DNA of 33,058 nt. Origin: a virus. Below, one piece after another: positions 1 to 29,569 of the stretch (positions are counted from its first letter, which is position 1; each line of letters opens with the position of its first letter). Under the pieces are notes generated by a model, which ran no database searches, was not told the DNA's origin, and saw only the letters and a list, made by a program, of their open reading frames with translations. The DNA lies in IMG/VR virus record IMGVR_UViG_3300027763_000152, positions 1 through 33,058 of that record. One strand, given 5' to 3'. Both the position numbers and the translations under genes were made by a program.

Positions 1-250
1 TCGGGTAGTACTTTTTACTTAATCCAGCCTGAAAACGTATACTTTGGTACTACAAAAAAGTGTCGGGATTTTGACACCCTGTAAGTTTCACGTAAGAAAT
101 GTGTCGGGAAATCGACACTTTGAGTACTTTTGTTTGCAGAAAAATTCCTGATGTAACACTAACGTATTACATGCAGGTGTCGGTTTTCCGACAGTTGTAG
201 CTAGTTTGTTTCCAGAAAACCGTGAAACATAACACTTTAGTACTACATTG
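1..250. repeat. Degenerate tandem repeats carrying short hairpins
   Basis: Three copies of gtgtcgg begin at 60, 101 and 177, each opening a small hairpin: gtgtc/gacac at 60-77, a perfect gtgtcg/cgacac at 101-118, and a perfect tgtcgg/ccgaca with a tttt loop at 178-193. The sequence between them is also related. tttgtttgcagaaaa in the second unit matches tttgtttccagaaaa in the third, and actttggtactaca (41-54) matches actttagtactaca (234-247) at 13 of 14 bases. The window opens with tcggg, which looks like the truncated start of another unit, so the array probably extends left. The unit length is uneven (about 41-76 bp). Function is unknown; protein-binding iterons or part of an origin are possible. 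Confidence 0.7.
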
Positions 251-336: not shown

Positions 337-416
337 CCTAACTGTTAGGGATGTGCCGCGCCTATCGGGGCGCCCTTGCCCATAGGTTTTGACTATCGGT
401 TATAGCGCATAACTAT
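337..416. other. Cluster of short stem-loops
   Basis: Three hairpins follow each other closely: cctaa/ttagg with a 3-nt loop (337-349), a nested GC-rich hairpin (361-386), and gttat/ataac with a 5-nt loop (about 400-414). No open reading frame with a ribosome-binding site covers them. They may be transcript structures or protein-binding sites. The base pairing is seen directly; the role is not known. Confidence 0.45.
361..390 (+). terminator. Terminator-like hairpin in the leader region
   Basis: The outer stem cctat/atagg (361-365 with 382-386) encloses an inner gggc/gccc stem (368-371 with 378-381), and TTTT follows at 387-390. The T-run is short, so a real intrinsic terminator for transcripts entering from the left is only possible. 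Confidence 0.35.
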
Positions 417-507
417 ATGCATACTTACTAATCGAGACAATCGTAAGTACACGTACTAATTGATAAATGCATAAAACAAACAATGAACAGACATTCACAT
501 TCAAAGA

Positions 508-608
508 GGGGGGTGGGGGGAAAACTTGGGATTTCATAAAATGACGTAATGCAGCTTACTACGATTTTTATAATTTTTAAAAAGGAGGGGGGACAGCTTA
601 CAGGGGGG
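508..608 (+). other. G-run cluster (possible G-quadruplex)
   Basis: Four runs of six G occur on the plus strand: 508-513, 515-520 (separated by one T), 587-592 and 603-608. The two pairs are about 65 bp apart. Such runs could fold into intra- or intermolecular G-quadruplexes. They are unlike anything else in this window, whose other long homopolymers are A or T. Confidence 0.4.
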
Positions 609-655
609 TATGTTACATGGTTTGGATTAAACGGGCTACAAGCCCTGTTTTATTG

Positions 656-688
656 GTTAGGCTACCTGGGTATTCCCAGGCTCCTAAC
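656..688. other. Long two-part stem-loop
   Basis: An inner 6-bp stem cctggg/cccagg with a tatt loop (665-680) is extended by a second 6-bp stem gttagg/cctaac (656-661 with 683-688) across a small internal loop. The right arm overlaps an alternative stem ctcct/aggag (681-693). It lies between a gggc/gccc hairpin followed by T residues (about 633-650) and a gcctc/gaggc hairpin (744-757). It could be a structured RNA element or a DNA cruciform site; no known RNA family was recognised. Confidence 0.45.
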
Positions 689-809
689 AGGAGCTTCTAG
701 GTGGGTTATAATCGTTTTAAACATGATAACAAGCTCGGCTAGGGCCTCGCATGAGGCTAACAGGAGATATGACGTTCTTGTTAACATGCTCGGGGCCATG
801 CCCTCGCGT

Positions 810-825
810 GTGCACGTACGTGCAC
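810..825. other. Perfect 16-bp palindrome
   Basis: gtgcacgtacgtgcac is its own reverse complement and sits immediately left of the long A/T tract. A palindrome this long is a candidate operator or initiator-protein site. No known protein can be assigned from the sequence. Confidence 0.5.
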
Positions 826-832
826 GTATAAG

Positions 833-960
833 TTATATAATAATAAATATAATAATATAATAAATATATAATAATAATATATATATATTAATATATTAGG
901 GTATCATACTTTTAACTTCTTGTCAATAGTTTTCTATAATTTTTTTTTTATTTTTAAAAA
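833..960. other. A/T-rich tract, candidate DNA-unwinding element
   Basis: Bases 833-898 contain only A and T (66 bp of TAATAATATA-like sequence). After a short gggtatc interruption the tract continues, strongly A/T-rich, to about 960. Next to hairpins, a palindrome and repeats this resembles the melting region of an origin. It may alternatively be an upstream enhancer for the promoter at 986-1014 or simply non-coding drift. No DnaA box with a full match was found. Confidence 0.4.
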
Positions 961-985: not shown

Positions 986-1014
986 TTGACTTTTAGATTC
1001 TTTTGTGGTATAAT
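986..1014 (+). promoter_or_regulatory. Sigma70-type promoter for the packaging/structural operon
   Basis: A -35 box TTGACT (986-991) and a perfect -10 box TATAAT (1009-1014) are separated by exactly 17 bp, so transcription should begin near 1021. This is the best promoter visible in the window and lies 54 bp upstream of the first gene. A weaker second candidate (ttaact 912-917, tataat 935-940, 17-bp spacer) lies further upstream. Use of host RNA polymerase is inferred from the bacterial consensus. Confidence 0.8.
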
Positions 1015-1067: not shown

Positions 1068-1790
1068 TTGGCTTTAACTGATAACGAAAAAACAAAAGAT
1101 CGTAAACCGAAGATACGTTCTGTTGACGCAGGGACCAACAGGTCCTGGTCAGACAAACAAAAGATTGAAGCTGTTCAGTCTTACCTACTTTTAGGCAATC
1201 TTGCGCTTACGTCTCGAATCTTGAAGATTCCTGAAATTACCCTTCGTGTGTGGAAAACCACCGAATGGTGGAAGAACGTTGTTGACGACCTACGGCAGCA
1301 AGAGTCTATGGAAATGTCAGGACGTCTGCGTAAAATCGTAGACGCCAGCCTGGTGGCTGTCGAAGACAGGCTGCTAAACGGTGACCTGATGTACGACAAC
1401 AAAACTGGTCAAATGGTACGCAAGCCCGTTAACATGCGGGATGCTCACAAGGTTGCTGTTGACCTAATGGACAAGAAAAAGCTCCTGGACAAGGAAGCTT
1501 TGGAAGGTCCTCAAGAACAACAAGACGACGACAGGTTGCTTAAGCTTGCTGAAAAGTTTGCCAGCCTGGTACAAGCTAAAACAGAAAAGCCCGTTGAGAT
1601 TATCGACGTGGAAGACGTAGAGATAAAGGAAGCTGGTTTGACTCCATCTTCCTCCGATATAGAGGAAAACCAAAATGCCATACATGACCAATGGGAAACG
1701 GGACTACAAGAAGGAGAACGAAAAGTACAACTCCAAGCCCGAGATTCGTCAAGCTCGCTCGGAACGGACGGTGCTCCGTCGTCAAGCTAA
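1068..1790 (+). CDS. terS: Terminase small subunit (putative)
   Basis: First gene of the right-pointing operon. The start is a TTG at 1068 preceded by GGAG (1057-1060) at a good distance; no ATG fits this position. The 240-residue product has a helix-turn-helix-like N-terminal part (about residues 25-65, with ALTSRILKIPEITLRVWK) followed by a helical middle region, as in small terminases that recognise the packaging site and hand DNA to the large subunit. The assignment rests on this fold pattern and on position directly before HNH and large terminase genes. The last 38 codons are Ser-rich (ending DGAPSSS) and are overprinted by the HNH gene in the +1 frame, so the C-terminus may be dispensable. 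Confidence 0.75.
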   Translation: MALTDNEKTKDRKPKIRSVDAGTNRSWSDKQKIEAVQSYLLLGNLALTSRILKIPEITLRVWKTTEWWKNVVDDLRQQESMEMSGRLRKIVDASLVAVEDRLLNGDLMYDNKTGQMVRKPVNMRDAHKVAVDLMDKKKLLDKEALEGPQEQQDDDRLLKLAEKFASLVQAKTEKPVEIIDVEDVEIKEAGLTPSSSDIEENQNAIHDQWETGLQEGERKVQLQARDSSSSLGTDGAPSSS

Positions 1791-1983
1791 TGCTGCAGGA
1801 ATCACCCACAAGGGAGACGGTAAGGACCTCGATCACATCAAACCTCTGTCAAAAGGCGGAGCTACCAAAATGTCCAACATGCGAGTCGTCGACGCTAGTG
1901 CCAACCGCAGCTTCTCTAGGAATGCAGACGGAAGCCTCCGTAACCAACAATCCACACGTGAGCGTAAAGCTAAACACAAATGA
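1675..1983 (+). CDS. HNH endonuclease
   Basis: A 102-residue basic protein with an HNH core LDHIKPLSKGG (about residues 52-62) followed by the Asn-containing segment MSNMRVVDASANRSF, which supplies the later motif residues. HNH nucleases next to terminase genes are common in phages and in some systems are needed for DNA cleavage during packaging; others are homing enzymes. Start ATG 1675 follows agagg; a second ATG at 1684 is possible. The gene overlaps the terminase small subunit by 116 nt in another frame and overlaps the large terminase by 4 nt (ATGA), so all three are probably translated from one message. Conserved Cys pairs for structural zinc were not seen. Confidence 0.85.
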   Translation: MPYMTNGKRDYKKENEKYNSKPEIRQARSERTVLRRQANAAGITHKGDGKDLDHIKPLSKGGATKMSNMRVVDASANRSFSRNADGSLRNQQSTRERKAKHK

Positions 1984-3500
1984 CTGTTCTTACAGCAGAC
2001 GTTGTTCAGGGTTTTGTTGGGAGTGTACTCTCATCGCGGTTTGATGGACGTTCCAGTAGCCCAGACTTTCACAAAGAATGCTGGGAACTGTGTTGCTCTC
2101 CAGAGAAGTTTGTAGCGATTGCTGCACCCCGAGGCCATGCTAAAAGTACAGGTGTTACACTAGGGTACGGGTTAGCCACTTTGCTCTTTCGAGAGCGCAA
2201 GTTTATGCTTCTTGTCTCAGATACAGAAGCTCAAGCCTCCTTGTTCCTTGGAACATTTAAACAAGAGCTGCAAGACAACCAAGACCTTATTGACTTGTTT
2301 GGCTTAAAGCGTAACGACAAAGGTTTGGTTCAGTTTGCTAAAGACACTGAAACAGACATTATAGTTGAGTGTCAGGACGGACATAAGTTCAGGATTATTG
2401 CCAAGGGAGCGGAACAGAAGCTTCGTGGATTAATCTGGAACGGGTCACGTCCCGACGTCATTATGTGTGACGATATGGAAAACGACGAGCTTGTTATGAA
2501 CAAAGAACGTCGTGAAAAGATGCGTAAATGGTTTAAAGGCGCTCTTCTTCCCTGTCGTAGTGATAGCGGTATTGTTCGCATGGTAGGTACAATCCTACAT
2601 GCCGACAGCTTGCTAGAACGCATGATGCCCAACCCGTCAGACAAAATGACGGTTGTAGAAGATTTAAAACAATACTCCAAACGCAAGGGTATGTGGAAAG
2701 CAGTTAAATACCGTGCACACAACTCTGACTTTAGTAAGCTCTTGTGGGCTTCTAAGAAGTCTGCTGCAGAGTTTAAGATGCTGTATGAGGAAGCTGTCAA
2801 AGATGGCACTACAGACATCTACAGCCAGGAATACTTGAACGAGCCTATTGATGAATCTGTGTCCTTCTTCAAGAAGGGGGATTTTCTTCCCATCACAGAA
2901 GAAGCACGAAAGGCCCGTCTCAACTATTACATTACGGCTGACTTAGCTATTTCGGAAAGTGAGAAGGCTGACTTCTCTGTGTTTGTGGTAGCTGGAGTTG
3001 ATGAGGATAAAATCATTCATGTTAAGAACGTTATTCGGGAACGTATGGATGGTAAGGAAATTGTGGACACGTTCATGGCCTTACAAAAGCTGTACAATCC
3101 TGTTGCAATGGGTGTTGAGGATATGCAAATTTCCAAAGCCATTGGCCCGTTCCTCCGTGAAGAGATGATTAAGAATAATACATTCATTTCCCTGTTGCCT
3201 TTAAAGCACGGTGGTAAAGATAAGACAACACGCGCTAGAAGTGTGCAAGCACGGTTACGTGCACATGGCATGAAGTTTGACAAAGAAGGTGATTGGTATC
3301 CCATCTTTGAGAACGAATGTTTGGCATTCCCTCGCGGTAAGCATGATGACCAAGTTGACGCTTTTGCTTACCTTGGACTTATGCTAGACATGCTTATTGA
3401 AGCCCCTACTCAAAGCGAAGCAGAGGAAGAAGAATATCTGGAGGAACTGGAAGGTTCCGATTTGAACAACCAAGGACGCGATTCCTACACTGGGTACTAA
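1980..3500 (+). CDS. terL: Terminase large subunit
   Basis: This 506-residue packaging motor has both expected halves. The N-terminal ATPase carries a Walker A-like motif APRGHAKST (about 48-56) and a Walker B segment DVIMCDDMEND (about 158-168). The C-terminal RNase H-like nuclease carries ITADLAISESEKADFS (acidic residue near 321) and a late HDDQVDAF motif (near 455). It pumps DNA into the prohead through the portal and cuts the genome at the end of packaging. It starts inside the HNH stop (4-nt overlap) and is followed 3 nt later by the portal gene. Length and motifs are complete, with no sign of damage or intein insertion. Confidence 0.95.
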   Translation: MTVLTADVVQGFVGSVLSSRFDGRSSSPDFHKECWELCCSPEKFVAIAAPRGHAKSTGVTLGYGLATLLFRERKFMLLVSDTEAQASLFLGTFKQELQDNQDLIDLFGLKRNDKGLVQFAKDTETDIIVECQDGHKFRIIAKGAEQKLRGLIWNGSRPDVIMCDDMENDELVMNKERREKMRKWFKGALLPCRSDSGIVRMVGTILHADSLLERMMPNPSDKMTVVEDLKQYSKRKGMWKAVKYRAHNSDFSKLLWASKKSAAEFKMLYEEAVKDGTTDIYSQEYLNEPIDESVSFFKKGDFLPITEEARKARLNYYITADLAISESEKADFSVFVVAGVDEDKIIHVKNVIRERMDGKEIVDTFMALQKLYNPVAMGVEDMQISKAIGPFLREEMIKNNTFISLLPLKHGGKDKTTRARSVQARLRAHGMKFDKEGDWYPIFENECLAFPRGKHDDQVDAFAYLGLMLDMLIEAPTQSEAEEEEYLEELEGSDLNNQGRDSYTGY

Positions 3501-17946: not shown

Positions 17947-18122
17947 CAACAATTGACGCTACAGATGCACGACTTTCCTCACACGAAGAAGTTTGTGCCT
18001 TACGATACGAAGTAATAAATGCTCGCCTTAAACGTCTTGAAAGCATCCTTGTCACGGCATGTGGTGTGTTGCTTACAGGTATGGGCGGGGTGGTAGTAAC
18101 TTTAATTACACACGCTCGATAA
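17943..18122 (+). CDS. Small XhlA/BhlA-like membrane protein (holin-associated)
   Basis: A 59-residue ORF starting inside the previous stop (ATGA). It encodes an amphipathic helix with Arg/Glu-rich coiled character (HEEVCALRYEVINARLKRLE), then one transmembrane segment (about residues 36-56, ILVTACGVLLTGMGGVVVTL). This plan, an N-terminal soluble helix and C-terminal membrane anchor, is that of XhlA-type hemolysin/holin partners. It ends 1 base before the next gene. It is likely the first gene of the lysis cassette; the function is inferred from topology and position. Confidence 0.68.
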   Translation: MTTIDATDARLSSHEEVCALRYEVINARLKRLESILVTACGVLLTGMGGVVVTLITHAR

Positions 18123-18123
18123 T

Positions 18124-18852
18124 ATGCCTTTAACAATTCTTGCCGCTGCCAATGCCGCTGTTGCTGCAATACAGCAGGGTTGTGAATTGTATAAAGAATA
18201 TAAAGGCGTTGTTCTTAAAGCTAAAGAAACCTTTGACGAAGCTAAAGAGCATGTCGATGAGGTTGTTGGTATATGGAACTTCATCAAATCCAAACTGTTT
18301 CCTGCAGATACGCCCCCTGTGCCTACGCCGTCTGATGTAAAGAAATCAGAAAAGCCTAGTGCGCCTAGGGGGGCACCCGTCAAAGAAGAACCTCTTGACG
18401 AACAGCGGATTAAAAAAGAGTTAGTTAAAAACCTTAAGATCTTCTTTAAAGGCATGATTGCCATGGACAAGAAGATAAAGGAACAACAGGAACGCATAGA
18501 CACTTCCGAAATACCTCCTGATGAGTTGCTTGACATTTCCCTTGACCATGTTGTGGCTAAGAAAGAAATGGAGAAGCTACAAAAAGAAATCAGAGAAATC
18601 ATGGTTTACCAGAGTCCGGCTGAACTGGGAGCTTTGTACACAGACGTTGTTGAAATGTTTGGTCTTGTACAGGAGAAGCAAGAAGCAACGCACTTATTGA
18701 ACCTTAGAAAACGTAAAGAAGCGGTACAACGCCAAGAACGTTTTATAAACAAAGTAAGACAACGAATAACATGGGTCATCGTTATGGCCTTAGTGGTAAT
18801 GGAAATATGGGGACTAACTCTGGCAATTCTTCTAGCGAGACAGCGTTTGTAA
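18124..18852 (+). CDS. C-terminally anchored coiled-coil membrane protein
   Basis: The 242-residue product has a helical N-terminus rich in Ala, a Pro/Lys linker (about 60-90, DTPPVPTPSDVKKSEKPSAP), long coiled coils (about 90-215) and a single transmembrane helix close to the C-terminus (about 217-236, ITWVIVMALVVMEIWGLTLA). No signal peptide is present, so the bulk is expected to be cytoplasmic. It lies in the lysis region but does not look like a spanin, whose anchor would be N-terminal. A regulator of holin timing or a virion protein are alternatives. No strong ribosome-binding site; it follows the upstream stop by one base. Confidence 0.65.
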   Translation: MPLTILAAANAAVAAIQQGCELYKEYKGVVLKAKETFDEAKEHVDEVVGIWNFIKSKLFPADTPPVPTPSDVKKSEKPSAPRGAPVKEEPLDEQRIKKELVKNLKIFFKGMIAMDKKIKEQQERIDTSEIPPDELLDISLDHVVAKKEMEKLQKEIREIMVYQSPAELGALYTDVVEMFGLVQEKQEATHLLNLRKRKEAVQRQERFINKVRQRITWVIVMALVVMEIWGLTLAILLARQRL

Positions 18853-29034: not shown

Positions 29035-29528
29035 TGGCAGATTCATTAGAACAAATGTTTAATGAACAACCAGGTTTCTTTTCTAAACTCACCGATCCAT
29101 TCACATTGAATAAATTGGTGACAGAAGAGGCTAGGCAACGGCATGGTATTGGTGAAGATGTTGGCGGTACAGGAGATGCTTATCGGCATCTTCTTGCCTC
29201 TGCTATCCTAGCTAAACGTCATGGTCCTGGGTATGCAGAAACCATTGGTAATATGCACGAATGGCGTGTTCCGTTTATTGGTGCTGGTTTTAATCCAGCC
29301 CCTGAAGACACCGCTATGGATTTGCATAACAACTCTCTTGGTAGACAGATTGCTCAAGAGTCAAAGTCTTACAAAGATGTTCAGCGTAAGGTTCAAGCAA
29401 ACATTGATTCAGGTACTGCTAAGACTGTGTACTCCCGTGCACAAGCTCCCAAGCAAGAATATGACCCAATAGATGCGGCAATAAATAAACCTATTGATTT
29501 AATCCGAAGTATGTTTACTCGGAAATGA
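29034..29528 (+). CDS. Protein with RH / HE / MDLHNN-GR motif (unknown activity)
   Basis: A 164-residue protein that starts on the stop of the large ejection gene. It contains an ordered set of polar motifs: GDAYRHLLASA (R51, H52), NMHEW (H75, E76), and EDTAMDLHNNSLGRQIA (D92, D96, N99, N100, R104). A similar RH...HE...MDLxNNxxGR pattern occurs in a domain found in phage proteins and in C-terminal toxin-like modules (I recall it as DUF6973). The conserved His, Glu and Asp residues suggest a metal-dependent hydrolase, possibly acting on the cell envelope during entry, but no activity is established. It ends directly at the operon terminator. Confidence 0.6.
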   Translation: MADSLEQMFNEQPGFFSKLTDPFTLNKLVTEEARQRHGIGEDVGGTGDAYRHLLASAILAKRHGPGYAETIGNMHEWRVPFIGAGFNPAPEDTAMDLHNNSLGRQIAQESKSYKDVQRKVQANIDSGTAKTVYSRAQAPKQEYDPIDAAINKPIDLIRSMFTRK

Positions 29529-29530
29529 AA

Positions 29531-29569
29531 AAAGCCCCTAAGCTCACAAGGCCTAGGGGCTTTCTTTTT
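29531..29569. terminator. Bidirectional intrinsic terminator between convergent modules
   Basis: A perfect 10-bp stem aaagccccta/taggggcttt (29531-29540 with 29554-29563) with a 13-nt loop has T-rich tails on both sides: tttcttttt rightward and ttttttcat on the minus strand. It ends the right-pointing structural operon and the left-pointing operon at once. The stop codon of the last left-pointing gene (29568-29570) lies in its T-tail. Confidence 0.92.

Follow-up and report, generated by a model that had tools for sequence, protein, structure and literature searches.

A terminase-linked G-run element as the probable cos-type packaging site of an uncultivated tailed phage family

In phage HK97, the small terminase (TerS) binds +15 to +29, CTAACCCGATTTTTT, where an A-tract comes after a C:G pair at 21, and cleavage at cos is stimulated by gp74, an HNH protein (PMC11331095). 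An HNH gene is found near the genome end in HK97, Pseudomonas phage D3, and Corynebacterium phage BFK20, and a 3′ cos is recorded for all three. The distance to the record end is 51 nt in HK97, counted from the start of a G9 run, and 53 nt in D3, counted from that of GGGGTGGGGCGGG; the annotated 13-nt 3′ cos of BFK20 has GGGGG about 32 nt upstream. These G-run matches were judged by eye and concern three genomes. Phage lambda divides its site into a termination signal, a cut site, and TerS-binding repeats (cosQ-cosN-cosB), a division that we also propose for the locus described here, but it is a contrast case in that no G-run lies upstream of its cos. Lambda cos has 5′ overhangs, and the lambda packaging system is not known to include an HNH protein. 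The records of BcepC6B and phiSLT were not informative as cos comparisons.

The DNA analyzed in this study, hereafter the window, is the whole of a linear virus record of 33,058 bases. Rightward from 1068, it carries a TerS candidate, an HNH endonuclease, the large terminase (TerL), a portal gene, and structural genes, and the genes at its right end, including those for a ribonucleotide reductase and a phosphoesterase, are read leftward (Table 1). A terminator-like hairpin, AAAGCCCCTA...TAGGGGCTTT followed by T's, lies at 29528-29568, where the rightward late genes give way to the leftward arm. In complete relatives, a packaging and structural arm runs rightward, a replication and nucleotide-metabolism arm runs leftward, and the region of interest occupies the gap between the 5′ ends of the two. 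Relatives that reach further left have a conserved leftward gene that begins about 540-940 bp left of the G-run, and therefore the first 500 bases of the window are also non-coding. The region is a divergent control region of a tailed phage of roughly 45-50 kb. The first-pass annotation had found no credible gene in the region and had ascribed control functions to it, and both statements hold: the non-coding stretch is even longer, extending from the left end of the contig to 1067, and it lies between the early/replication and late arms and carries a near-consensus late promoter. A small gene at 549-860 (103 aa) was rejected; it has no Pfam or PHROG match and its frame is broken in relatives, where a rightward frame of at least 45 aa overlaps the site in two of the eight listed (L020 and L026) and stop codons cross the equivalent of 549-860 in L011 and L021.

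The family profile of the TerS candidate has no confident sequence match, and the identity of its product is weak by sequence. The AlphaFold model of the product, with a mean pLDDT of 68, shows a helix-turn-helix at the N terminus plus a long helix, and the best 8 of 350,542 chains in a fold search were small terminases (G20c, P74-26) at weak E values of 0.6-0.9, matches that are suggestive only.

Table 1. Coordinates of features in the window and of the corresponding element in one isolate.
Feature	Position	Strand	Basis or remark
Operator-like palindrome GTGTCGGGATTTTGACAC	60-77	.	copies 101-118, 177-194; probable early-gene control
Palindrome CCTAACTGTTAGG	337-349		
Stem-loop CCTAT...ATAGG	361-386		
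Stem-loop GTTATAGCGCATAAC	one base off from 400-414		
G-run element GGGGGGTGGGGGGAAAACTTGG, cosQ-like position	508-529	+	conservation; G-runs upstream of the recorded cuts of HK97, D3, BFK20
Predicted cleavage interval, cosN-like	541-561	+	inferred from HK97 and D3 spacings
Conserved TGACGTAATGCA inside predicted cleavage interval	542-553		GTAA columns invariant in 16 relatives
Predicted small-terminase binding site CTACGATTTTTATAATTTTTAAAAA	559-583	+	conserved; resembles HK97 TerS site
First TTTAAA-type repeat, possible cosB-like TerS site	626-642	+	weak in the window itself
Stem-loop, 6-bp outer stem	656-688		
Second TTTAAA-type repeat GTTATAATCGTTTTAAAC	705-722	+	
Conserved block GCTCGGCTAGGGCCTCGCATG, CTCG repeated at about 11 bp	733-753	+	looser second copy 788-810
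Stem-loop GCCTCGCATGAGGC	744-757		
Perfect 16-bp palindrome GTGCACGTACGTGCAC	810-825		
66-bp A/T-only tract	833-898	.	exact run; recurs in relatives
Motif GGGTATCATACTTTT-N-TTGTCAA	899-926	.	just right of A/T tract; conserved in many relatives
Sigma-70-type promoter TTGACT-17-TATAAT, extended -10	986-1014	+	11/12 matches; upstream of terS
Small terminase candidate (TerS), TTG start	1068-1790	+	position before HNH and TerL; predicted structure; fold search
HNH endonuclease	1675-1983	+	PHROG 333 E 2e-5; Pfam HNH_5 and HNH below cut-off
Large terminase (TerL)	1980-3500	+	PHROG 38 E 1e-80; Pfam Terminase_6C
Element segment GGGGGTGGGGG...ATGCACCTTACTAAATTTT in Alcaligenes phage vB_Af_QDWS535	about 48,250-48,320		

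A BLAST comparison of the region with 43 TerL relatives singled out 500-590. The element found there comprises a G-run interrupted by T or TA, then AAA(A), a variable stretch of approximately 20 bases, the core (C)GTAA, and, after CTACG, a tract rich in A/T; its internal spacing is nearly fixed among relatives. A 16-sequence alignment shows no variation at GTAA, at a TA step, at two A positions, or at most G positions of the second run, and at up to 3 mismatches 0.2 chance matches to the G-run element are expected in the window. Approximately 30 relatives, with TerL identities reaching as low as about 45-55%, keep the element and its spacing, and the element also occurs at a bacterial-MAG locus (L184) that was located through its TerL rather than through the element. 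All of the sequence features listed in the first-pass annotation exist, one stem-loop being shifted by one base; the best-conserved part of the region (GGGGGGTGGGGGGAAAACTTGG, TGACGTAATGCA, CTACGATTTTTATAATTTTTAAAAA) is not among them, and neither are the G runs at 508-513, 515-520, 587-592, and 603-608. Structural conservation among relatives, which had been proposed as a check on the stem-loops, did not appear: for the alignment of 16 relatives, RNAalifold gave a consensus of -1.2 kcal/mol with 4 pairs, essentially no conserved RNA structure, and no covarying conserved helices. Because the alignment contains essentially no RNA structure, the conservation of the core looks like that of protein-binding DNA.

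A pattern scan of viral contigs for a G-run plus GTAA returned at least 119 stretches. Among the matches listed, the element stands beside a terminase in 113 of 119, with 31 in the TerL family of the window (including L094, a fragment of a family contig that was counted to it) and 82 mostly in another lineage; in 112 of the 119 listed, the contig matches the terminase of either lineage on the same strand and near the element, and the 6 outside the 113 look like chance. For the 30 listed matches of the window family with a terminase, TerS matches begin 276-1680 bp downstream on the same strand. The second lineage (TerS Terminase_2; TerL PHROG 2) surfaced without any gene information in the scan; in its 82 listed matches, which are mostly close relatives and of which one or two may be chance, the gap from the end of the TerS match to the G-run is 4-52 nt, and TerL matches begin 0.9-2.9 kb beyond the run. 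At L121, L107, L070, and similar loci, which belong to one phage group, the G-run element is flanked by TerS on one side and HNH/TerL on the other; TerL of this type shares 64% identity with its counterpart in Pelagibacter phage EXVC031P. In EXVC031P, a relative of the second lineage, the G-run is absent from the corresponding place, and we count this against the cos reading. Cronobacter phage Ss1, Vibrio phage VA-RY-3, and Microcystis phage Mwe-JY08 each carry, upstream of their terminase genes, a candidate relative of this layout.

Because of the terminase linkage and the likeness to HK97, D3, and BFK20, we consider the core at 508-583 to be, probably, a DNA packaging initiation and cleavage site, and most likely one of the cos type. 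When the spacings of HK97 and D3 are transferred to the window, the cut is predicted to fall within about 541-561. According to the mechanism that we propose, the small terminase would bind CTACGATTTTTATAATTTTT and the phased TTTAAA-type repeats downstream (the cosB analogue), TerL, aided by the HNH nuclease, would cut within the predicted interval, and the G6TG6 run would act as lambda cosQ does, as a termination or arrest signal that is read as the next genome end arrives. The window sequence CTACGATTTTT, downstream of the predicted cut, resembles the mapped TerS site of HK97, a C:G step followed by an A-tract. In both phages, the HNH, TerS, and TerL genes adjoin the site and a G-run precedes the cut, which is recorded in HK97 and predicted in the window; in the window, the packaging genes follow in the order TerS-HNH-TerL, with the conserved element 560 bp upstream of the small-terminase gene. 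The element adjoins terminase genes and is conserved in relatives, as expected of a cos site, and an HNH gene lies beside the terminase, as expected of an HK97-like one. However, terS begins 50 bp after the cut in HK97 and the HNH gene is at the other genome end, whereas in the window terS begins about 510-530 bp downstream of the predicted cut, the HNH gene follows terS, the A/T tract and a promoter separate the site from terS, and the sequences are not alignable. D3 and BFK20 have a different TerS and no evident similarity to the window beyond the G-run and A-rich bases. For most sequences, a leave-one-out motif scan put a second TTTAAA copy ahead of the other by 69 or 79-80 nt, distances that are stepped by about 10 bp; this copy reached p<=0.02 in 8 of 13 sequences and was not significant in the window (p 0.41). 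A cosB-like role is therefore only suggested, and the phased repeats may be a cosB analogue.

The same terminase linkage would be expected of a headful (pac) site, at which the terminase recognizes this element, cuts loosely, and then continues by headful rather than unit-length cos cutting. The TerL of the window is also similar to the TerLs of Mu-like phages and is related to other non-cos terminases, and we count this similarity against the cos reading; Mu-like phages use a different packaging mode. Moreover, no contig of the window's family starts or ends exactly at the predicted cut, and several begin 18-112 nt upstream of the G-run, which does not fit a clean end at 541-561 and likewise counts against a cos site. 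These starts could mark a physical end or result from failed assembly at the G-run, and contig ends were consequently rejected as a proxy for virion ends. The independent contigs L024, L041, L017, L036, L052, L147, and L184 begin 18-47 nt upstream of the G-run. A scan for contig ends from the left arm recovered few ends. However, the HNH gene beside terL is typical of cos phages and HNH stimulates cos cleavage (PMC11331095), the spacing is near-fixed through the GTAA core, and the layout resembles the cos ends of HK97, D3, and BFK20. We therefore regard a headful site as unlikely and retain the cos-type site as the preferred reading.

Measured from the G-run, the A/T-only tract is placed at about +320 in the window and at about +190 to +435 in many relatives, including the isolate QDWS535. 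About 5e-13 such runs are expected at the base composition of the window, in which the next longest run is 27. The tract is a candidate for a second function. To its right, the promoter at 986-1014 would drive the terS-HNH-terL operon; the minus strand of 899-926 reads TTGACA-12-TATGAT, a spacing too short for a normal promoter. In the left non-coding part, a palindrome of the form GTGTCGG(N)CCGACAC occurs three times beside ACTTTAGTACTACA-type repeats, and L006 and L011 have a similar palindrome approximately 400 bp to the left of their G-run; early-gene promoters and operators probably lie on this side.

The first-pass annotation had named the region a candidate origin, and a replication origin in which the A/T tract serves as the unwinding element and neighboring repeats as initiator sites could coexist with the packaging site. 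The tract recurs in relatives, and the adjacent leftward arm carries replication genes. The cumulative GC-skew, which had been proposed as a check, has its minimum near the region in two complete relatives, at 47,400 in QDWS535 (G-run near 48,250) and at 18,036 in ct2os315 (G-run near 18,350), with maxima at the convergent gene junction. However, these are also the points at which the genes change direction, so that replication and transcription are confounded in the skew, which does not establish an origin. Both minima are also displaced from the element toward the early genes, the long A/T tract is missing in some relatives, no initiator gene or iterons emerged from the analysis, and the most conserved part of the region tracks the terminase genes, in the second lineage as well. 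An origin at the A/T tract is thus possible but improbable. The control region is supported, whereas the origin as first described is not; the conserved core is linked to the terminase and resembles mapped cos sites.

A structured non-coding RNA transcribed from the stem-loop region is very improbable, and we rejected an RNA gene on the grounds that Rfam gave no match at gathering score, other matches being sub-threshold, and that no structure is kept and no helix covaries across the 16 relatives. Although 600-830 folds better than shuffles (z -4.1), 330-830 does not do so clearly (z -1.8), and coding controls in the same window reach z -4.7, with 5 of 40 below -2; stem-loop content alone is therefore weak evidence. 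A tRNA search found none, and the block at 733-753 was unsupported as an RNA hairpin by RNAalifold in the 16 relatives.

The proposed site is of a packaging-site kind that is already known, and the G-run signature is possibly general. Whether a G-run (G5-8, T or TA, G5-7, A3-4) approximately 30-55 bp before the cut acts as a general cosQ-like signal of HNH-assisted cos packaging across distant terminase lineages is a tentative generalization that we hold with considerable doubt; G-rich DNA perhaps stalls the motor at the genome end. A literature search of open-licence papers turned up no account of the G-run acting as a cos signal. For the phages studied here, a plausible origin call is corrected to a packaging site, and a coordinate-level prediction of the genome end becomes available for a large uncultivated phage family. 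If the generalization is true, the genome ends of uncultivated phages would be readable from sequence, and a signature that links distant terminase lineages could mark genome ends in metagenomes.
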